In this document: positions 2,299 to 36,586 of the stretch, piece after piece
How positions within the stretch are numbered: the stretch's first letter is position 1
How the letters are laid out: every line of letters begins with the position of its first letter
From: Azoarcus sp.
GTDB taxonomy: Bacteria > Pseudomonadota > Gammaproteobacteria > Burkholderiales > Rhodocyclaceae
Length of the DNA: 36,586 bases
Assembly (NCBI GenBank): GCA_031277975.1
Contig: JAITLI010000090.1
Span: 1 to 36,586, forward strand
Direction of reading: 5' to 3'
Notes under the pieces: model-generated
What the model was told of the DNA's origin: nothing
What the model saw: the letters and a program-made list of their open reading frames with translations, nothing else
Database searches by the model: none
Program-made: the position numbers and the translations under genes

Positions 2299-2423
2299 GA
2301 TTCCCCTCCCTCGCTTGGCGGGGGAGGGCGCCCGAAGGGCGGGAGAGGGCGTCGTTCCATCCGGCGCGCAGCGCCGCTGATTGAATCAAGGAATTCCCCT
2401 CGCCAGGGGAGGGAGGGGAATGC
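2299..2423. repeat. Inverted-repeat element inside the rimI-udg gap
   Basis: The left arm GATTCCCCTCCCTCGCTTGGCG and the right end, which read in reverse is GCATTCCCCTCCCTCCCCTGGCG, form imperfect inverted ends about 30 bases long. Between them lies CCATCCGGCGCGCAGCGCCGCTGATTGA, the centre also found in the CGTCATTGCGAGG family near 10.1 kb. The element lies in the 2140-2464 gap, where I see no gene. Its hairpin could uncouple udg from tsaB-rimI or act as an RNA-processing site; this is inference. Confidence 0.65.
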
Positions 2424-2464
2424 TTTGGAAAAACCACCGCGCTCATTTCGATGGCGAAGCCGCA

Positions 2465-2926
2465 TCATAGCTCCAGTTTCATGACAATAGCGTCCTCGCG
2501 TCCGCCGGAAGCTGGATAATAGCCTTTGCGCCGTCCGATTTCGACAAAACCGGCGCGCCGGTAGAGCGCCAGCGCGGGTGCGTTGGAGGGGCGGACTTCG
2601 AGGAAAAACCAGTGGGTGCCGCCGCGCCGCGCTTCGTCCAGCAGATAGCCGAGAAAGCGCCCTCCGAGACCACGCCCCTGTTCGCCGTGCGTCACGCTGA
2701 TGTTGAGGAGATGATTTTCGTCGATCACCGCAAGCACCACCGCGTAGGCCACGGGTACGCCGCCGTCGGACATCAGCCAGCAGGCATGTCCCACCGCCAG
2801 CGAGTCGAAAAAATTGTTCCGCGACCACGGAAAGGGATGCAGGAGGGCTTCCTGCGCTGCCACCCAGTCGAGATCGTCTTCGCGCATGGGGGTGAAGCTC
2901 AGGCCCGGGGCGCGCTCCGGCATCAT
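2465..2926 (-). CDS. rimI: Ribosomal protein S18-alanine N-acetyltransferase (GNAT)
   Basis: GNAT-fold acetyltransferase of 153 residues, the usual RimI length, predicted to acetylate the N-terminal alanine of ribosomal protein S18. The acetyl-CoA binding motif is seen as QGRGLGGRFLGYLL (about 83-96), preceded by the conserved NISV strand, with ALALYRRAGFVEIGRRKGYY at the C-terminal end. The ORF track's 307-residue version runs upstream through tsaB in another frame. The start chosen here, ATGATGCCG, overlaps the tsaB stop as ATGA, a typical coupling arrangement. The second ATG is an equally possible start. The tsaB-rimI pairing is common in proteobacteria. Confidence 0.92.
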   Translation of the reverse strand: MMPERAPGLSFTPMREDDLDWVAAQEALLHPFPWSRNNFFDSLAVGHACWLMSDGGVPVAYAVVLAVIDENHLLNISVTHGEQGRGLGGRFLGYLLDEARRGGTHWFFLEVRPSNAPALALYRRAGFVEIGRRKGYYPASGGREDAIVMKLEL

Positions 2927-3609
2927 GCCTTGTTCCCCCGCGCCAGGCGCTCGGCGGTGGTCAGCGCAACTTTGTTGCGCACATACAGGGGCGCGGTGCG
3001 TTCGGGCGGCGCCATGGCCGCCGCGCCCATGGCCGCTGCCAGGCGGGCCACCGCTTCCGCCGAGGGCGTCGCCGTCGGATCGCAACCGGCAAGTCCGGCG
3101 GTGACAGTGGTCAGATCCGCCGTGTGCGCGGCAAATGCCGTCCCCAAGCCGAACCATGCGCCCGCCGGCGGGCGCGGCAGCGCGGCGGGGGCGCAGCAGG
3201 CGGGCGCGGCAAGCTCGCTGACCGCGCCGCCTTCCACCCGGTAGCGTCCGTGGTAGATCTCGCCCATGCGCGCATCGGTCGCCACCAGCGCCAGGGGCCG
3301 GGGCGACTGCATGGCCAGCGCCGCCAGTGTGCACACCGGAATCACCCCCAAGCCCGCGCCAAGCGCCAGACCCTGCGCGACGCCGCACGCCAGCCGCAGG
3401 CCGGTAAAAGCGCCCGGCCCCGCGCCGAAGGCCACGGCATCGAGCGCGCCCATGCCCAGCCCGGCTTCGGCCAGCAGCGCGGCGGTAACGGCGAGAATAC
3501 GTTCGGAGTGGTCCGCGTGCCCTTCAAACCAGACCACGCGCGTCCCGCCATTGATATAGAGCGCGGCACTGGCGCGCTCGCAGGAAGATTCAAAAGCAAG
3601 TAACTTCAT
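2923..3609 (-). CDS. tsaB: tRNA N6-threonylcarbamoyladenosine complex subunit TsaB
   Basis: TsaB (YeaZ) is the non-catalytic partner of TsaD in making t6A37 of ANN-decoding tRNAs. The 228-residue protein has the ASKHA-fold N-terminus MKLLAFESSCERASAAL and the hallmark GAGPGAFTGLRLACGVAQGLALG (about 62-84), followed by the TDARMGEIY segment. Length and N-terminus match the family. The stop overlaps the rimI start by ATGA. No gene lies immediately upstream on the same strand; waaF ends 87 bases away on that strand, so tsaB probably heads a tsaB-rimI transcript or reads on from waaF. Confidence 0.93.
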   Translation of the reverse strand: MKLLAFESSCERASAALYINGGTRVVWFEGHADHSERILAVTAALLAEAGLGMGALDAVAFGAGPGAFTGLRLACGVAQGLALGAGLGVIPVCTLAALAMQSPRPLALVATDARMGEIYHGRYRVEGGAVSELAAPACCAPAALPRPPAGAWFGLGTAFAAHTADLTTVTAGLAGCDPTATPSAEAVARLAAAMGAAAMAPPERTAPLYVRNKVALTTAERLARGNKA

Positions 3610-7674: not shown

Positions 7675-8547
7675 ATGCCTTCGATACCTTCAATGATTGC
7701 TCTGCCCCCGCCCCTCCCGCCCTCTTCCGGCCCGCCGCCCGCTCCTTCCGACGGCCTGCTGGCCAGGGCGCGCATCCTCGCGGCGCTGGTGCGCAGGATT
7801 GCCGGCGCGGAAATCCTGCCGCGCTACCTGAAAGTGGCGCGCGGACGCAAGGCCGACGGCTCTCTCTTCACCGAGGCGGATCTGGCCACGCAGCGGCGCC
7901 TCGCGGAAGAATTGCCGACGATCCTGCACGGACCGGTGCTGGGCGAAGAAATGAGCGGCGAGATGCAGGCGCGCCTCTGGAGCGAAGGCCGCGGCGGTCT
8001 GTGGTGCATCGACCCGATCGACGGCACCACCAATTTCATCAACGGCATTCCTTTTTTCGCGGTGGCGATCGCCTGGCTCGTCGACCACGAACCGCGCCTT
8101 GGTCTGGTCTATAACCCGATCAGCGACGAATGTTTCTACGCCGCCCGGGGCGCGGGCGCTTTCATCAACGACGAAACCCTTCCCCTGCGCCGCAGCACGC
8201 GGCGGTTGCGCGAAGCAGTGGCCGGTTTCGATTTCAAGCGCGTCAGCCCGCATCTGGGGGATGAACTGGTGGCGCGCCCGCCGTATTTCACTCAGCGCAA
8301 TTTTGGCTCCAGCGCGCTGGAATGGTGTTTCCTCGCCGCCGGGCGCTTCGATGTCTACATGCACGCCGGGCAAATGCTGTGGGATTACGCCGCCGGACAG
8401 TTGATCCTTGCCGAAGCCGGCGGCTGCGCCTGCGCGCTCGGCGGCGGCACGCTGTCGGCGGGACCGGCGGTCAAACGCGGCGTCATCGCCGCCGCCAACC
8501 CGCTGCTGTTCGCCGAATGGCGCGCGTGGCTGCAATCGCACTCATGA
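7675..8547 (+). CDS. Inositol monophosphatase family protein
   Basis: Mg2+-dependent phosphatase of the FIG/IMPase superfamily, 290 residues. The metal-binding motifs are intact: E91 in GEEM, DPIDGTTNFINGIPF (113-127), and the C-terminal WDYAAGQLILAEAGG. The substrate is not readable from sequence; inositol phosphates, PAP/FBP or histidinol phosphate are all handled by relatives. The N-terminal 25 residues are proline-rich and probably not part of the fold, so translation may start at the internal ATG seven codons in (7693). The first ATG lies in a GCATGC palindrome shared with the opposite strand. Confidence 0.88.
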   Translation: MPSIPSMIALPPPLPPSSGPPPAPSDGLLARARILAALVRRIAGAEILPRYLKVARGRKADGSLFTEADLATQRRLAEELPTILHGPVLGEEMSGEMQARLWSEGRGGLWCIDPIDGTTNFINGIPFFAVAIAWLVDHEPRLGLVYNPISDECFYAARGAGAFINDETLPLRRSTRRLREAVAGFDFKRVSPHLGDELVARPPYFTQRNFGSSALEWCFLAAGRFDVYMHAGQMLWDYAAGQLILAEAGGCACALGGGTLSAGPAVKRGVIAAANPLLFAEWRAWLQSHS

Positions 8548-8698: not shown

Positions 8699-9637
8699 CT
8701 ACTGCCGCTGTTCGAGCCAGTGGGCCAGACCCTGCGCGTCGAGTTCCATGTCCACTCTCAACACCGGCCTGAGCCATTCGCGGCTTTCGGCGGGCGCTTC
8801 GGCGAGCAAGTAGCGCTCGATACTGGCATGGATAGTGTTCTTCCGGGCTTTTCCTTCTCCCGGCGCGGCTTCAGCCAGAGCGACGAAAACGTCGATCCGG
8901 CGCAATAAATCCGCGCCCAGGCGCTCCACATCATCCACCCGGCTGAAATGCGTAAGATACATCGCTTCCGGCTTGAGCGCGAGCAGGCGATGGATCGAAG
9001 CCTTCATCGCTTCGGGATCGAACTGGGTCGGCGTGGTGGCGGGGATCAGGAACGGCTCGCCGCTCACGCCCATTTCCCGATAAGCGATGCCGAAAGCGTC
9101 GCCGGTGAAACAGGCGCGCGCCCGCGCATCCCATAGGCACATGTGATGCTTGGCGTGCCCGGGCGTATGCAGGCATTGCAAGGCTCGGCCCGCGAGATCG
9201 AAAACCTGTCCATCGGCGGCTTCGAGCACCCTTTCGGGCGGTACCGGCACGGGCGCGCCGTAAAGGCGGCGAGCGATTTCCACGCCATACACTTCGGAGG
9301 CGCCTTCAAAAAGCCGGACGGGGTCGATCATGTGGCGCGCGCCGCGCGGATGCACCACCAGTTTTGCGTTCGGCAAGCGCGCCATGTAAGCGCCCGCGCC
9401 GCCCGCGTGATCGAGATGGACGTGGGTGAGAAACACATGATCCACCGCCTCCGGCGCCAGTCCGAGCTGATCGAGCGCGCCCAGGAAACGGGGCAGCGCG
9501 GCATTGTGGGCGGTATCGACCACCGCGACGCGGCCCTTTTCGACGATCAGATGCACGGCGGCCAATCCCGGACGTACATAGCCGGCATCCACGGCATGAA
9601 TATCGTCCGGCCAGGTAAAAAGCGGTTCAGTCTGCAT
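8699..9637 (-). CDS. MBL-fold metallo-hydrolase
   Basis: Metallo-beta-lactamase-fold hydrolase, 312 residues from the ATG chosen here; the track's upstream GTG at 9649 adds four residues and has no better ribosome site. The dinuclear metal motif reads THVHLDHAGGAG, followed by HTPGHAKHH, the FTGDAFG aspartate motif and a C-terminal THF histidine. These are the glyoxalase-II/lactonase-type ligands. The long C-terminal helical part (after about residue 215) resembles uncharacterised MBL proteins of proteobacteria rather than GloB. The substrate is unknown. It is convergent with the phosphatase gene, and a junk region lies upstream. Confidence 0.82.
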   Translation of the reverse strand: MQTEPLFTWPDDIHAVDAGYVRPGLAAVHLIVEKGRVAVVDTAHNAALPRFLGALDQLGLAPEAVDHVFLTHVHLDHAGGAGAYMARLPNAKLVVHPRGARHMIDPVRLFEGASEVYGVEIARRLYGAPVPVPPERVLEAADGQVFDLAGRALQCLHTPGHAKHHMCLWDARARACFTGDAFGIAYREMGVSGEPFLIPATTPTQFDPEAMKASIHRLLALKPEAMYLTHFSRVDDVERLGADLLRRIDVFVALAEAAPGEGKARKNTIHASIERYLLAEAPAESREWLRPVLRVDMELDAQGLAHWLEQRQ

Positions 9638-9781
9638 GGCGCGGATCACTCGCGGGAGTTGTCAGATCCGGCAGGATAAAGCGTCCGCCCGGCGCGGGCA
9701 AACCCGATCCCTGATCCGCGGGTTACGGGGAATGCGGAACATCGGCATTGGCGATGCCGTTGAGAACCCGTTCCAGCAGCC

Positions 9782-9930
9782 CCGCCGCCGCCAGGCAATA
9801 ACGCCACGAGCAAAATGCACCATGGCCATGAGCGTCTCGGGAAGCTTCTCCCAGCAAACGAATATCCAGCGAAAGCGGTTCATCCACCCATGCGTGCGTT
9901 CGACCACCCAGCGCCGCTGCGCGCCGGATG
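9782..9930 (-). pseudogene. C-terminal remnant of an IS5-type (DDE) transposase
   Basis: The - strand reads QRRWVVERTHGWMNRFRWIFVCWEKLPETLMAMVHFARGVIAWRR (coordinates of the recognisable part). That is the end of an IS5/IS427-like transposase, in which the glutamate of VVERT is the last acidic residue of the DDE triad. The N-terminal and central parts are gone. The frame runs upstream only into repeat sequence, so the 209-residue ORF in the track is not a real protein. The break falls exactly where the repeat centre ATCCGGCGCGCAGCG begins. Confidence 0.75.
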
Positions 9931-9937
9931 GTTGAAT

Positions 9938-9982
9938 CCTCCTCTCCCGGCCTTCGGCCACCCCGCAAGCAGGGGAGGGGAG
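9938..9982. repeat. Short inverted repeat with internal GGCCTTCGGCC hairpin
   Basis: CTCCTCTCCC and GGGGAGGGGAG flank an inner GGCCTTCGGCC palindrome. It resembles a shortened version of the element in the rimI-udg gap and directly abuts the transposase remnant. Confidence 0.45.
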
Positions 9983-9997
9983 TCCATCGGAAAGACT

Positions 9998-10228
9998 CGT
10001 CATTGCGAAAGCCGCCCCCTTCGTCATTGCGAAAGCCTCTCCCATCGTCATTGCGAGGCGCGAAGCGCCGGGGCAATCCAGTGCGTTCCATCCGGCGCGC
10101 GAGCGCCGCTGATTGATCCGGGTGGATTTGCGGCTCGCCAAGGCGCTTCGGATGGTTGAACCGCTGCATGGATTGCCACGTCGCTGCGCTCCTCGCAATG
10201 ACGAGGTGGGAAGGCTTTCGCAATGACG
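9998..10228. repeat. Nested palindromic repeat cluster (CGTCATTGCGA family), full copy
   Basis: CGTCATTGCGA occurs at 9998, 10022 and 10046, exactly 24 bases apart. The third copy opens a full element with inverted ends, from CGTCATTGCGAGGCGCGAAGCGCCGGGGCAATCCA to TGGATTGCCACGTCGCTGCGCTCCTCGCAATGACG (10046-10203). A further outer arm, TGGGAAGGCTTTCGCAATGACG, ends at 10228 and pairs with the 10022 copy. The centre holds CCATCCGGCGCGCGAGCGCCGCTGATTGA. With the transposase remnant it accounts for most of the gene-free 9650-10310 stretch. All ORFs here are repeat by-products. Confidence 0.8.
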
Positions 10229-10310
10229 AAGTGGAAGGGTTCGCGGGGCGGGGCGTGCGCAGGGGCGGATGGCAATCCGCCCGTCTGGCAAATCCCGCCT
10301 GCCTTGACGC

Positions 10311-10373
10311 CGTAAAACTGTAGTTTCAAGCCGTAAAACTGTAGTTTTAAACTATAAAACTGTAGTTTTGAAC
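10311..10373. repeat. Three 21-bp tandem repeats with AAAACTGTAGTTTT dyads
   Basis: Copies start at 10311 (CGTAAAACTGTAGTTTCAAGC), 10332 (CGTAAAACTGTAGTTTTAAAC) and 10353 (TATAAAACTGTAGTTTTGAAC). Each contains the dyad AAAACT-GT-AGTTT(T). The unit is two helical turns long and AT-rich, in contrast to its surroundings. Both a protein-binding array and decayed coding repeats (reading LKLQFYG on the - strand) are possible. Confidence 0.85.
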
Positions 10374-10420
10374 CGTGAAGGCCGACCCTCAAGGCAACCT
10401 TCCCATCCTTCCCCGTCATC

Positions 10421-10675
10421 ATGGTCAGGCGATATGCCACCACTTGGGCGCGCGACCTGCAAGGCCGCATCGTCGCCAGGGTGACGCCCGACGGCGCGAT
10501 GACCGCCTACGAATTCGACAGCGCCGGACGGCCAGCCGCCGCCAGCCCCAAGCGCGAACGGATGGATTTTGCGCAGGAGGAGAGCGGCAAGACGATTTAT
10601 TTCTGTGTGCGCTATGAGAACGCCAAGGGGGAGCCGGGGCCGTGGGGGCCGATCTTCTCGGCGGTGATTCCGTGA
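10421..10675 (+). pseudogene. RHS-repeat-like gene fragment with an unrelated tail
   Basis: An 84-residue frame begins with a stretch like one RHS/YD repeat (ARDLQGRIVARVTPDGAMTAYEFDSAGRP, about 10-38). It ends with KTIYFCVRYENAKGEPGPWGPIFSAVIP, which recalls the end of larger uncharacterised bacterial proteins rather than an RHS protein. There is an in-frame stop shortly upstream (10376). RHS proteins are often T6SS effectors hundreds of residues long, so this is best read as a rearranged remnant at the edge of the T6SS locus. A real small protein cannot be excluded. Confidence 0.45.
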
Positions 10676-31744: not shown

Positions 31745-33247
31745 ATGCCCGAAACCAGCGCCCGCACATCGCCGGCAGCCGCCATATCCTATGCGGAACA
31801 GACGGATTTCGCCGCCCTGCTCGAAAAAGAATTCAAGCCCAAGACGGAAGAACAACGCACAGCCGTCGAAACCGCCGTGCGCACGCTCGCCCAACAGGCC
31901 ATCGGTTCCGCGATCACGCTGCCCGGCGACGCCTACCGCACCATCGAGGCGATCATCGCGGAAATCGACCGCAAATTGAGCGAACAGATCGACCGGATCA
32001 TTCACCATGAAGATTTCCAGCGACTCGAATCGGCATGGCGAGGATTGCATTACCTCGTAAACAACACCGAAACGGACGAAATGCTCAAGATCCGTTTCAT
32101 GAACATCTCCAAGAAAGATCTGCATCGCACCCTGCGGCGTCATAAAGGCACTGGCTGGGATCAAAGCCCGGTTTTCCGGCGTGTTTACGAAGAAGAATAC
32201 GGACAACTCGGCGGCGCTCCCTATGGCTGCCTAGTCGGCGACTACTATTTCGACCATTCCGCGCCGGACATCGAACTGCTCGGGGAAATAGCAAAAATAT
32301 CGGCCGCCGCGCACTGCCCCTTCATCGCCGGCGCGGACCCCGCCGTGATGCAAATGAAATCGTGGCAGGAACTGGCGAATCCGCGCGACCTGACCAAGAT
32401 CTTCGAAAATACCGAATATGCCCCATGGCGCAGCCTGCGCGAATCGGACGATTCACGCTATATCGGGCTGGCGATGCCGCGTTTCCTCGGCCGCATGCCC
32501 TATGGCGCCAAGACCAATCCGATCGACGAATTCGATTTCGAGGAAAACACCGGCGGAGCCGATCACCAGCGTTACCTGTGGATCAACGCCGCCTACGCGA
32601 TGGCGGCCAATATCAACCGCAGCTTCAAGCAATACGGATGGACCACCTCGATTCGCGGCGTTGAATCCGGCGGCGTCGTCGAAGACCTGCCGTGTCACAC
32701 GTTCCCGACCGACGACGGCGGCGTGGACATGAAATGCCCGACCGAAATCGCCATCTCGGATCGCCGCGAAGCCGAACTGGCCAAGAACGGCTTCATGCCG
32801 CTGATCCATCGCAAGAACACCGATTCCGCCGCGTTCATCGGCGCGCAAAGCCTGCAAAAACCCGCCGAATACCACGACCCGGACGCCACGGCGAACGCGA
32901 ACCTCTCGGCGCGCCTGCCCTACCTTTTCGCCTGCTGCCGTTTCGCCCACTACCTCAAGTGCATCGTGCGGGACAAGGTTGGCACATTCAAGGAACGCGA
33001 AGACGTGCAGCGCTGGCTCAACGAATGGATCGTGAATTACGTCGATGGCGATCCGCGCAATTCGAGCCAGGATACCAAGGCGCGCAAACCGCTCGCCGCC
33101 GCCCAAGTCGTCGTCGAGGACGTCGAAGGCAATCCCGGCTATTACAGCGCCAAATTCTTCCTGCGTCCGCATTACCAGCTCGAAGGACTCACCATGAGCC
33201 TGCGTCTGGTCTCGAAACTGCCGTCCGCCAAGGGGAGCAACGCCTGA
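31745..33247 (+). CDS. tssC: T6SS contractile sheath large subunit TssC
   Basis: Large sheath protein of 500 residues, typical for the family. Signatures include HEDFQRLESAWRGLHYLVNNTET, LKIRFMNISKKDL, YGCLVGDYYFDHS, the FLGRMPYG segment, and the C-terminal YYSAKFFLRPHYQLEGLTMSLRLVSKLP end that forms the handshake beta-sheet. Its partner tssB is directly upstream. The gene is followed by an inverted repeat and by tagJ on the other strand. Confidence 0.97.
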   Translation: MPETSARTSPAAAISYAEQTDFAALLEKEFKPKTEEQRTAVETAVRTLAQQAIGSAITLPGDAYRTIEAIIAEIDRKLSEQIDRIIHHEDFQRLESAWRGLHYLVNNTETDEMLKIRFMNISKKDLHRTLRRHKGTGWDQSPVFRRVYEEEYGQLGGAPYGCLVGDYYFDHSAPDIELLGEIAKISAAAHCPFIAGADPAVMQMKSWQELANPRDLTKIFENTEYAPWRSLRESDDSRYIGLAMPRFLGRMPYGAKTNPIDEFDFEENTGGADHQRYLWINAAYAMAANINRSFKQYGWTTSIRGVESGGVVEDLPCHTFPTDDGGVDMKCPTEIAISDRREAELAKNGFMPLIHRKNTDSAAFIGAQSLQKPAEYHDPDATANANLSARLPYLFACCRFAHYLKCIVRDKVGTFKEREDVQRWLNEWIVNYVDGDPRNSSQDTKARKPLAAAQVVVEDVEGNPGYYSAKFFLRPHYQLEGLTMSLRLVSKLPSAKGSNA

Positions 33248-33351: not shown

Positions 33352-34128
33352 TCAATGTTCGAGATTTATCCGGCCCACGGCGAACATATCGAGCGCTTCC
33401 CCATCCACATACCACACCCGGCGTCCGGCACCATACCATGTGCCGCCCGGGGATTCGTGCCAGACCGTTTCGGCGCCCGTCAATCGCGCGTCGGAGTCCC
33501 CCCGCGCCGGAGAGGGGTATCTTGTGGGCATATAAGCGATCTTGGCGGGATGGCCGGTTAATTTCAGGTCAACTGGCGCCCAGACCAGTTCCATGGCGCG
33601 CTTCGGCGGTGGAATTCGCAGGCTTTCCACGATCTCGAACGGTGCCCAATAATATGTCCCGCCCAGAATGATCTCGATCATCGGCCCGAGCCGTTCGTCG
33701 CCGTCGGCAATCCACTCGAACGCGGCAGGCGGCCCCTCGCCATGGTTGCCCTTGCTCGCGGGTGCGGCGGCCAGCGCCGCGCGCCGCGCCCGCGCCGCTT
33801 CTTCCCCGGATTGGCGCAACGCTTCGATCATGCTTTCAAGCCACGCGGGAGCCGGAGCCAGCAAATCCGGCAGGATTTTCCCCGCGAATACCGCCTCGCG
33901 CGTCTGCTCAGCACGCACGAGCATCCTGATCAGTTGCGCTTCCGGTGCCAGTTCGGCATCGAATTGACAGGCAAGCTGCAATTGTTGCAGCGCCTTTTGA
34001 TACTCCCCCTGCACAAGCCGCAATTGCGCCAGCGCTAGCCGATGGGAAGCCTTGAGCGGCTCGGCGCGAATCGCGACGCTGATTTGTTCAATTTCCTGTG
34101 CCAGCCCACGAATGGTAAGAGAAGTCAT
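33352..34128 (-). CDS. tagJ: T6SS accessory protein TagJ (ImpE family)
   Basis: ImpE/TagJ proteins bind the N-terminus of the sheath protein TssB and help ClpV act in H1-type systems. The 258-residue product has an N-terminal TPR-like helical part (about 15-75, HRLALAQLRLVQGEYQKALQQLQLA) and a C-terminal ImpE domain (about 140-258: GGTYYWAPFEIVESLRIPPPKRAMELVWAPVDL, ARLTGAETVW). It ends facing tssC rather than lying inside the tssABC operon, so it is separately expressed. No promoter is clear upstream. It is the last recognised T6SS gene before the prophage-like region. Confidence 0.9.
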   Translation of the reverse strand: MTSLTIRGLAQEIEQISVAIRAEPLKASHRLALAQLRLVQGEYQKALQQLQLACQFDAELAPEAQLIRMLVRAEQTREAVFAGKILPDLLAPAPAWLESMIEALRQSGEEAARARRAALAAAPASKGNHGEGPPAAFEWIADGDERLGPMIEIILGGTYYWAPFEIVESLRIPPPKRAMELVWAPVDLKLTGHPAKIAYMPTRYPSPARGDSDARLTGAETVWHESPGGTWYGAGRRVWYVDGEALDMFAVGRINLEH

Positions 34129-34658
34129 GTTGTGAATTCCGCCAATGAAAAGAATGGGAGAACATAGTTTACCACTTCCTGAAAAGATACATGAATCAGT
34201 CTATTTCGGGTGAAGTTTGTACAACGCGCACACGATATCATGCGTTCTCTATAGCAAATTAACTTGATGTGCTCATGTCGATCCGCACTTTTCCCATCAC
34301 TTGAGCGCTATCTGACGGAGGATAGAGAAAACAACAGAACAGAGAAAAACGTTTTCATGGCTGACTCCAGTTGTTGAAGGTTCTCTCTGCCGGGATGGTT
34401 GGTCTGCCGGGATGGTTGGTGTTATGGTTTTGAAGGTTGCCCTTGGGTTCGCCGTGGTTGCGATCCACGACGGGCAGACCGGAACGGACTTCAGGCATAC
34501 CTTTGTCGCAAGGCAGGCGAAACCGCAACGCCGTTGCCCGTTCCGGCTGCGCCGTAGAGGCGCTACCCGGCGCGGCGTCCTATGTCCGGCGGCGTGAGCA
34601 TACATTATGTGCCCCTTTTCTCAATTAAATCAGTAAATAAATTTTCATGATTTTTCGT
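34129..34658. other. Gene-poor spacer between the T6SS locus and the prophage region
   Basis: About 530 bases with no gene I can support. Short ORFs on both strands (61-102 residues) have no recognisable motif. The first ~230 bases are AT-richer than the T6SS genes, the middle is GC-rich again, and the last 60 bases are AT-rich. A perfect 17-base tandem duplication lies inside. No tRNA or clear attachment-site repeat was recognised, although the end of the prophage should fall somewhere here. Confidence 0.5.
34386..34419. repeat. Perfect 17-bp tandem duplication
   Basis: TCTGCCGGGATGGTTGG occurs twice, end to end (34386-34402 and 34403-34419). It is a recent slippage or insertion scar in non-coding sequence. 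Confidence 0.85.
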
Positions 34659-35411
34659 TTACACAAGTATGAAATTATTTATATATGTATTGATGTCCTG
34701 TCCGTTCAGTTTATATTGGCGCTTCCTCGCGTCTCTCGTAATCTGTACTGACAGAGTTCTACCAGTAATAACCCCGGTAGCCCTCAGGTGTTCAAGCAAA
34801 GCGTTTGGAATAACAGCGTAATCTAAAAAACGATCTTCCCGCATCACAAAAATATAAAATGGTTTTTTGTTGAGATTATCATCGAATGCTTTTTGCTCGA
34901 TACCGAACCCAAAAGTATTTCCCAAGAGAGATGCGTTTTTTGTCGAAGTTTTGACTTGAATATAATGGAACTTTCCTTCTTTCTCTGCAATCAAATCAAC
35001 ACCTTGATCAACAGCCATTGTTGAAACATTAAACCCCCAAAAAAGAAGCTCACTAGCTACAGCATATTCTCCAGCCTTACCAGAGTAAAGAGTGTTTACT
35101 GATGGCGGTATTACTTTAATAATTGAACTGTCAGTACTTGATCCACGCTTTAACCGATAGAATCCACGGCGAAATGTCCCTTTTCTTTTACCAGATACTT
35201 TTGAGAAAATAGGCTTTTTTGTTCTCGCATGACTGGATAGTGCAGCGCCTATCTTTTCTGCAAGTTTTTCCTCAGAAAGCCCAAAGTTTCTGTTTTGGTT
35301 TACGGCTATTTTTGCGATTTCGTTAATGTGCATCCCTTGCGTTGTTCCATGACTATCTTCGTAAAGGATGTCCCTGACAACACTTAAGATTGGAGAAAGC
35401 TTTGTGTCCAT
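34659..35411 (-). CDS. HARE-HTH-like domain fused to a PD-(D/E)XK nuclease
   Basis: The 250-residue product has two parts. Residues about 5-88 (ILSVVRDILYEDSHGTTQGMHINEIAKIA...FRRGFYRLK) resemble the HARE-HTH winged-helix domain, which is known from restriction and chromatin proteins. Residues about 108-200 have the PD-(D/E)XK layout: GEYAVASELLFWGF (E115), GVDLIAEKEGKFHYIQVKTS (D139, then Q152-V-K154). The core therefore reads E...D...QxK, as in many restriction-like and repair nucleases. The gene is AT-rich, begins six bases after the repressor stop, and should be transcribed with it in the lysogen. A defence or superinfection-exclusion role is inferred; repair or regulatory cleavage is possible. 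Confidence 0.75.
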   Translation of the reverse strand: MDTKLSPILSVVRDILYEDSHGTTQGMHINEIAKIAVNQNRNFGLSEEKLAEKIGAALSSHARTKKPIFSKVSGKRKGTFRRGFYRLKRGSSTDSSIIKVIPPSVNTLYSGKAGEYAVASELLFWGFNVSTMAVDQGVDLIAEKEGKFHYIQVKTSTKNASLLGNTFGFGIEQKAFDDNLNKKPFYIFVMREDRFLDYAVIPNALLEHLRATGVITGRTLSVQITRDARKRQYKLNGQDINTYINNFILV

Positions 35412-35417
35412 GTTATT

Positions 35418-36092
35418 CTAATTCCCAAAGTTCTTCATTTCCATCGGTAGGGCACGAAGCACTTTCCCGACGATTCGAGTTTCTTCCAGCTTTTCAGCCC
35501 ACGGCCATGGCGGGTAGTTTTTGTTATCTGATACGACGGTCAGGGTTCGCCCAGCGTAGGTCAGGCGTTTGCAAATCAGCTCCCCGGCGTGCAGGAGCAG
35601 GTAAACCCCCTCACCGTCGAACGCTATGATCGATGTGTCAACAAAGAGCAGATCGTCTGGCTGGATCGTCGGCAGCATGCTGTCATGCTCTGCGCGGACA
35701 ACTTTTACACTGCCGTCTGCGTTTGATCGCCCGATCAGTTTCCGCGCCCCTTCGGCCACTATTTCGATGCTGTGAATGATCTCTGGATAATCTGAATTGA
35801 CTGCGCCAGCCCCGCACGCGGCTGCCACATGGAGTACATCGAAGCGGGAGATGTCAGAACGTGACTTTCTTTCGGGAGTCATAGGCCCTTTTCCTGTGGC
35901 CAGCCATGAGGATGAAACGCCCAGAATATCTGATACAGTTAAAAGATTTTCACCGCGTAGCGATTTTGTTGCGCCGGAAAGCCAGTTATTCACAGACGCA
36001 GTGCTGATATTACATGCTCGTGCAATGTCTGCTTGTTTTATCCCATTCGCTTTAGATAAAGCGAACTGTATCCGTTCTGTGAATGTTTTCAT
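35418..36092 (-). CDS. Phage CI/LexA-type repressor (HTH plus S24 peptidase)
   Basis: Predicted lysogeny repressor of 224 residues. An N-terminal helix-turn-helix (about 18-40, IKQADIARACNISTASVNNWLSG) is joined to an S24 self-cleaving peptidase domain with the catalytic serine S138 in HDSMLPTIQPDD and the lysine K175 in LICKRL. The linker contains ACGAGAV (92-98), which offers Cys-Gly and Ala-Gly bonds, the two dipeptides cut in this family. SOS-triggered induction is therefore likely. AGGA lies nine bases before the ATG. It diverges from a Cro-like gene across 70 bases holding three operator-like sites. Confidence 0.9.
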   Translation of the reverse strand: MKTFTERIQFALSKANGIKQADIARACNISTASVNNWLSGATKSLRGENLLTVSDILGVSSSWLATGKGPMTPERKSRSDISRFDVLHVAAACGAGAVNSDYPEIIHSIEIVAEGARKLIGRSNADGSVKVVRAEHDSMLPTIQPDDLLFVDTSIIAFDGEGVYLLLHAGELICKRLTYAGRTLTVVSDNKNYPPWPWAEKLEETRIVGKVLRALPMEMKNFGN

Positions 36093-36162: not shown

Positions 36163-36459
36163 ATGGACAAATGCAAATACATAGACGGGATTATTGACGG
36201 CCTCGGCGGAACCTGTGCGACGGCCAGAATGTGCGGAATTCGATTTGCTTCGGTTTCCAGGTGGCGGAAAAAGGGCATCCCTCGGGCATGGCTGGCGTAT
36301 TTCCGGGCTGTACGCCCGGATTTATTCAATGAATCGGTCGATCCGCAGCGCCTCTCCATGCCGGAACCGGAGCTTCTTGACCCGCCCGACCTGATGGAGA
36401 GGCTGGCGCAGACCGAGTCCGCCATGCATGGGGCTGGAATCAAGGATGTCGGGCCATGA
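36163..36459 (+). CDS. YdaS/Cro-like phage regulator
   Basis: Small 98-residue DNA-binding protein. The helix-turn-helix (about 16-38, GTCATARMCGIRFASVSRWRKKGIPRAW) followed by LAYFRAVRPDLF is the YdaS/Cro pattern of Gram-negative temperate phages. It should oppose the repressor and favour lytic growth. The residues after about 56 look disordered. There is no ribosome-binding site before the ATG, and a TAATAT lies only seven bases upstream, so the mRNA may be leaderless. Its stop overlaps the next start as ATGA. Confidence 0.8.
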   Translation: MDKCKYIDGIIDGLGGTCATARMCGIRFASVSRWRKKGIPRAWLAYFRAVRPDLFNESVDPQRLSMPEPELLDPPDLMERLAQTESAMHGAGIKDVGP

Positions 36460-36586
36460 GCCTCGATCCGAAGTCCGTCCACGTCCGCCTGTCCCCCGAC
36501 ATGCACGAGCGCCTGGCGGTGCTGGCCGGGCTGGAGAACCGGGAAACCGCCGCACACGCCGCGCTGCTGCTGGAAAAGATGATCGT
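36456..36586 (+). CDS. Ribbon-helix-helix-like phage protein (partial)
   Basis: Not in the ORF track because it runs off the window. It starts at the ATG overlapping the stop of the Cro-like gene and reads MSLDPKSVHVRLSPDMHERLAVLAGLENR...LLLEKMIV for 43 residues. A short strand (VHVRLS) followed by two helices is typical of Arc/CopG-type ribbon-helix-helix regulators. The rest of the protein is unseen, so the family call is tentative. It is probably the second gene of the rightward early operon. Confidence 0.6.
   Translation, partial: MSLDPKSVHVRLSPDMHERLAVLAGLENRETAAHAALLLEKMI

Follow-up and report, generated by a model that had tools for sequence, protein, structure and literature searches.

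A gene for a predicted nuclease of 250 amino acids, in which a putative HARE-HTH winged helix precedes a PD-(D/E)XK domain, stands directly behind a CI/LexA-type phage repressor, and comparison of homologous loci gives good support to the conclusion that it is swappable cargo of a repressor-linked slot. We propose, with about as much belief as doubt, that the product is a stand-alone nuclease carried by the lysogen for modification-dependent (type IV-like) anti-phage restriction. The gene would be cargo (a 'moron') in the lysogeny operon of a temperate phage, co-transcribed with the repressor during dormancy; the N-terminal winged helix would recognise incoming DNA by some mark or feature, and the E-D-QxK PD-(D/E)XK domain at the C-terminus would then cut it. 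Because cutting would be limited to marked DNA, the host would be spared without a cognate methyltransferase, and the lysogen would thereby be protected against phages with modified DNA. We infer from sequence comparison that the gene is expressed in the lysogen and that its product cuts DNA, recognises modified DNA and acts against phages.

The window, that is, the whole stretch of 36,586 nucleotides that was analysed, is one entire contig (C200) of a source genome (G000) assembled as 2.71 Mb in 204 contigs. Type VI secretion genes occupy its left part and a phage immunity region its right end (Table 1). Homology of the host DNA to a related genome (G004) on the ImpE side stops at about position 34251, and a repeat that occurs in many contigs of both genomes covers about 34247-34324. 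This repeat belongs to a ~75-bp dispersed intergenic family of the genus and adjoins the left junction of the element. The original prediction of a nuclease gene starting six bases behind a same-strand CI/LexA-type repressor was borne out, since both open reading frames are present at that spacing and the repressor matched Peptidase_S24 (1.2e-15), HTH_3 (9.8e-8) and the phrog_4 family 'transcriptional repressor' (2.3e-45). No terminator-like site was found between the two genes on that strand, and promoter-like matches around the gap were close to shuffled expectation. The divergent Cro-like frame matched a DNA-binding protein family (phrog_8008, 2.7e-11) and, weakly, P22_Cro; a frame resembling the Arc-like one by eye occurs in the homologous phage L002 (4112-4456, minus strand). 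GC content was 38.9% in the nuclease gene, 51.3% in the repressor gene and 64.6% in the type VI part of the contig. No methyltransferase motif was detected in the 36.6-kb window, in agreement with the earlier statement that none stands beside the gene; nor do phosphorothioate modification or restriction genes adjoin it, its neighbours in the window being type VI and phage immunity genes.

Table 1. Positions of the features of the window and of small genes adjoining the nuclease gene at homologous loci.
Feature	Position	Strand	Remarks
VipB/TssC gene (type VI secretion)	31745-33247		left part of window; Pfam
ImpE family gene	33352-34128		left part of window; Pfam
Left junction zone	34251-34658	.	
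HARE-HTH-like / PD-(D/E)XK nuclease gene	34659-35411	-	250 aa, ATG start
PD-(D/E)XK nuclease domain	34707-35090	-	about residues 108-235
Catalytic-residue span, E...D...QxK	34950-35069	-	from alignment of 12 homologues
K154 codon	34950-34952	-	
Q152 codon	34956-34958	-	
D139 codon	34995-34997	-	
E115 codon	35067-35069	-	
HARE-HTH-like winged helix, N-terminal	35148-35393	-	residues 7-88
Gap, repressor stop to nuclease start	35412-35417	-	6 nt
CI/LexA-type repressor gene	35418-36092	-	224 aa; HTH_3 + Peptidase_S24
Cro-like small DNA-binding protein gene	36163-36459	+	98 aa; divergent
Arc-like small protein gene	36456-36586	+	start MSLDPKSVHVRLSPDMHERL...; cut at contig end
Signal-peptide-like gene, L002	5420-5946		adjoins nuclease gene
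Signal-peptide-like gene, L005	8726-9079		adjoins nuclease gene
Signal-peptide-like gene, L006	8781-9089		adjoins nuclease gene
Signal-peptide-like gene, L010	8729-9058		adjoins nuclease gene
Signal-peptide-like gene, L011	762-1154		adjoins nuclease gene
Signal-peptide-like gene, L014	5725-6081		adjoins nuclease gene
Signal-peptide-like gene, L072	6726-7262		adjoins nuclease gene

The C-terminal half of the protein is a PD-(D/E)XK nuclease domain, as had been predicted. Residues 106-158 matched the Pfam family PDDEXK_5 with 26.1 bits (1e-5), exactly at the curated cut-off of 26.1, and a match to this family was obtained for all nine members scanned together, that of L002 reaching 26.7 bits and those of the other homologues falling under the cut-off. 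Weaker Pfam matches were to DUF4365 and Mrr_cat_2, and residues 107-199 matched phrog_5018, a PHROG family of unknown function (7e-10). An AlphaFold2 model built from a nine-sequence alignment reached a pLDDT of 79.8 and placed a flexible linker at residues 92-111. With E values of 2e-4 to 8e-4, the best solved structures retrieved with this model by Foldseek were resolvases of the Hjc type, SPARDA effectors and the homing nuclease I-Ssp6803I, all PD-(D/E)XK folds; with query TM-scores below 0.4, these matches point to the core shared by PD-(D/E)XK proteins rather than to any particular function. Neither single-sequence nor profile searches of the PDB gave meaningful relatives of the window protein, and a PADLOC match to PDC-S01 (3.4e-4, over 68 residues) was too weak to name a system. 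The residues D139 and K154, singled out beforehand as the ones to mutate, proved invariant across 12 aligned homologues (38-56% identical to the window protein), as did E115 and Q152. A 'PD-QXK' active site is known from Mrr catalytic domains (PMC11037411).

HARE-HTH domains are found in proteins as different as bacterial restriction enzymes and human ASXL1. At the N-terminus of our protein, the AlphaFold2 model contains helices at residues 7-20, 29-38 and 47-62 and a beta wing at 69-73/80-87; when the N-terminal 92 residues were folded separately without an alignment, the model was poor (pLDDT 58.7). Against a Pfam cut-off of 25.9 bits, the single-sequence match to HARE-HTH (PF05066) scored 17.5 bits for the window protein (0.0057) and 19.9 bits for the domain alone (0.00099). 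Several homologues gave matches to the same profile positions, all of them under the cut-off, the best being L016 with 25.1 bits (2.4e-5). Profile-profile comparison was more telling. An early comparison with only two HARE-HTH proteins had given a probability of 29.9%, and hhalign against ten genuine HARE-HTH domains gathered by family search gave 93.2% and a score of 40.7, well above the mean of 10.1 and maximum of 18.1 obtained with controls that consisted solely of 200 column-shuffled profiles. We thus take the N-terminus to be a divergent HARE-HTH, which agrees with its earlier assignment, with single-sequence matches weaker than the profile comparison. In the literature the domain figures as a putative reader of modified DNA (PMC10853773, PMC11037411), and it has been argued, without proof, to sense modified cytosine (PMC11037411).

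To place the gene among its relatives, homologous loci were collected by profile scans of IMG/VR and GTDB contigs. Results showed 16 distinct loci, the window included, mostly in temperate phages. No homologue was found among the 50,697 phage records of INPHARED with the window protein, L015 or L014 as query, or among the 72,556 plasmid records of PLSDB with the window protein or L015, and relaxing these searches to E values of up to 10 returned chance-level matches only. The 100 close relatives contained no homologue, and 399 genomes of the order yielded two matches, one of them in the window's own genome. Half of the loci (8/16, with the window) have the gene in a repressor operon: at six it lies immediately behind the repressor (the window, L010, L015, L016, L067 and L071), and at L005 and L002 one or two small genes intervene. 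At the eight loci outside repressor operons, the homologue is found near KilA-N/Rha-type regulators (L006, L007, L014, L073), near a repressor but not behind it (L004/L012 and L072), at the edge of a phage contig (L011) or, in the Polaromonas locus L008, in the chromosome beside a gene for an SspF ATPase (PADLOC, 6.9e-200). In all 12 loci measured, the GC content of the gene was below that of its own locus.

Several further observations were made at these loci. In L008 (5893-9969) the homologue lies between SspF and a small HNH-like open reading frame, recognised by eye and without a Pfam match, at the contig end; no obvious SspG or SspH gene was seen beside SspF. Two copies may be decaying, namely that of L016 (8001-8645), which looks truncated at 214 amino acids, and that of L073 (5792-6528), which looks split into two frames. 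At many loci the nuclease gene has as its neighbour a small gene whose start resembles a signal peptide (Table 1). A common exported partner was rejected, since the small exported or membrane proteins compared were mostly unrelated and only those of L002 and L006 share a family. We also rejected L017-L019 as family members, in which only the nuclease domain is similar, accompanied by a C-terminal HTH and located beside capsid-type genes. In L017 (7968-8627) and L019 (7947-8606) a PDDEXK_5-like domain with a C-terminal HTH is encoded directly behind a capsid-type gene, and the related phage L018 has a PDDEXK_5-like match near 8001-8126.

The recurrence of the gene behind repressors, which the original prediction had put forward as a check, was then quantified. 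Placement in the repressor operon occurred in 7/15 independent homologous loci, corresponding to a binomial probability of ~1e-5 under the rough assumption of 3 chances in 50 for a random gene. The repressors in front of the nuclease are of both S24 and non-S24 kinds and for the most part bear low or no similarity to that of the window; a single shared repressor-nuclease module was thereby rejected, and the association is recurrent. The reciprocal comparison pointed the same way. Three relatives of the window repressor (47-51% identity) come from two members of the genus and a further genome of the family, and a fourth (34% identity) from elsewhere in the order. The slot behind these four never holds the nuclease but encodes a DnaJ-like membrane protein in L087, small membrane proteins in L088, an exported protein of 74 aa in L089 and a protein of 143 aa in L090. 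The position behind a CI-like repressor is also the site of the lambda rexAB genes and of the RexAB defence genes of P. putida, whose defence function is experimentally supported (PMC12894663), and in phage Fc02 the open reading frame behind the repressor is transcribed in the lysogen (PMC9936078). All in all, the family marks this position as a repeated parking place for swappable cargo of unrelated phages, and the slot helps in finding further lysogen-borne defences.

What such cargo would do is suggested by its architecture. The protein has the type IV trait of a predicted nuclease fused to a putative DNA-reader domain with no cognate methyltransferase, and a solo, active-looking nuclease of this make-up fits a modification-dependent enzyme. 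A defence role is plausible, and the earlier defence interpretation is partly supported. We suggest further, although with more doubt than belief, that repressor-coupled, phage-borne HARE-HTH nucleases form a distinct family through which the lysogen tells self from non-self by reading DNA modification. If so, a dormant phage would block competitors with modified genomes, and the nuclease would be off in lytic growth, so that a methyltransferase of the phage could be used without self-destruction. This bears on L010 and L067, where C5-cytosine methyltransferase genes (2333-3124 and 1685-2971, respectively) lie on the opposite strand several kilobases from the nuclease, among other genes; if the nuclease depended on cytosine modification, their products would generate targets in the phage's own DNA during lytic growth, which counts against the main proposal, although they may instead hint at the specificity. 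Also against that proposal are the HARE-HTH scores, under the Pfam cut-off in every member, the eight homologues outside repressor operons, four of them near KilA-N/Rha-type regulators, and the isolated position of SspF in L008.

The main rival is a lysogen defence effector that recognises DNA structure or an infection signal instead of a base or backbone modification; candidates are phage DNA that is branched or being replicated, free ends, or a trigger of abortive infection. It would draw on the same evidence from operon position and cargo behaviour, and the best fold matches, Hjc, I-Ssp6803I and the SPARDA effector nuclease, suit it, as does a weak Pfam match to Hjc that was seen in L071 alone (E 0.07, under the cut-off) and not in the window protein. 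Since the fold matches go no further than the shared nuclease core, and since HARE-HTH is regarded in the literature as a putative reader of modified DNA, we nevertheless consider this explanation unlikely.

A role for the phage itself, as a recombination or Holliday-junction nuclease or as a RexA-like modulator of lysis and lysogeny with no part in defence, appears less probable still. The homologues do occur mostly in phages, their fold is Hjc-like, RecT/YqaJ-type recombination genes lie by eye within a few kilobases of the homologue in L002, L010 and L072, and lambda RexA, encoded in the same slot, is able to tip the lysis/lysogeny switch (PMC11077077). Half of the homologues, however, sit in an operon that would be expressed while phage replication is off; the catalytic residues are invariant, a constraint not expected of a regulator that only binds DNA; one homologue is chromosomal and neighbours the defence gene SspF; and the sparse distribution, from 0/50,697 phage records to 2/399 genomes of the order, is unlike that of a core phage function. 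It is very improbable that the protein is a conventional type II-like restriction enzyme, with the methyltransferase that protects against it encoded elsewhere in the host or phage. The C5-methyltransferases of L010 and L067 could be cited in its favour, but at their distance and in their opposite orientation they would not be co-expressed with the nuclease, and no methyltransferase motif was present in the surveyed flanks of most homologous loci, C5-methyltransferases being seen in 2 of the 16.

The modification-dependent reading also had to be set against systems already described. The fusion as such was already known, for HARE-HTH-REase proteins have been published at Dnd loci, with a suggested role in distinguishing modified DNA (PMC10853773), and as back-up effectors of BREX (PMC12839542), and HARE-HTH-Mrr and HARE-HTH-GIY-YIG proteins were also found here. 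The architecture is consequently a phage-borne new form of already published HARE-HTH-REase fusions, occurring mostly in phages. With the Dnd and BREX proteins it shares the combination of HARE-HTH with a PD-(D/E)XK/REase domain and, in L008, the proximity to SspF; it differs in being mostly phage-borne, within repressor operons or near other phage regulators, and in having a divergent HARE-HTH, a PDDEXK_5-like nuclease and usually no adjoining modification system. The stand-alone HARE-HTH-Mrr (L047, L048) and HARE-HTH-GIY-YIG proteins (L046, L050, L051, L053, L054), whose nuclease types were assigned by eye, have the same order of N-terminal HARE-HTH and C-terminal nuclease, and the D...QxK residues are common to the Mrr ones, but they are chromosomal, belong to other nuclease families and score clearly over the Pfam HARE-HTH cut-off.

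Similar likenesses connect the protein to other groups. The type IV enzymes DpnI, FcyTI and HhiV4I, the last of which is described as prophage-encoded, also combine a winged-helix reader with a nuclease as solo proteins, many of them without a methyltransferase (PMC11037411); in the DpnI type, the nuclease comes first and is followed by a canonical wH that reads G6mATC, whereas here the HARE-HTH comes first. Lambda RexAB and P. putida P1 RexAB resemble the window gene as cargo downstream of a CI-type repressor, with a role in exclusion or defence in the lysogen that the window gene would share (PMC12894663; PMC11077077); RexA is a DNA-binding protein and not a PD-(D/E)XK nuclease. Hjc Holliday junction resolvases share the core fold and gave top Foldseek matches, but they carry no HARE-HTH, and the window gene lies in a lysogeny operon; in sequence, only one homologue matches them, and weakly. 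A solo protein of 250 amino acids with an intact-looking catalytic site, present in many temperate phages, is in any case convenient for asking what HARE-HTH domains bind; if the family does read modifications, it would offer a HARE-HTH defence enzyme open to direct test and, with it, a way to learn what the domain recognises.

Whether the copy in the source genome belongs to a complete prophage is a separate matter. The contig ends at 36586, so that the prophage is visible as an immunity region only. Another contig of the assembly (C18; L032) shares an exact 119-bp overlap with the window end (36468-36586) and runs past the end of the Arc-like frame and a truncated phage frame to hemA within ~0.5 kb, although this join sits at a branch of the assembly graph, may be wrong and is not reliable alone. 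If the join is real, the window piece would be either the decaying remnant of an immunity region, no longer functional, or a mini-island of the chromosome under repressor control, and not a prophage, a serious possibility that we hold to be somewhat doubtful and that is compatible with defence cargo as the explanation for the family. Parallels are offered by the L005 homologue in Accumulibacter and by the repressor homologue in genome G020 (L089), both located among host genes with no visible phage structural genes. Against a remnant, the nuclease, repressor and Cro-like frames are intact and conserved residues are kept, and phage DNA is fragmented in this assembly, as seen from a 4.8-kb contig of the same genome (C51; L062) that carries a terminase gene (phrog_2, 6.2e-29) with DUF3486-like and lysozyme-like genes and appears Mu-like by eye. 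An intact prophage was not confirmed in the source genome by the C18 overlap or by searches for the ZIP transporter and terminase.

Two loci showed additional genes of note. In L005, a frame with a NADAR domain (9391-10530, 4.2e-10) lies just past the repressor-nuclease island, and in L055 (1444-3055) a HARE-HTH-only protein is followed by an adenine methyltransferase of the D12 class and a small open reading frame, HNH-like in appearance, on the opposite strand.
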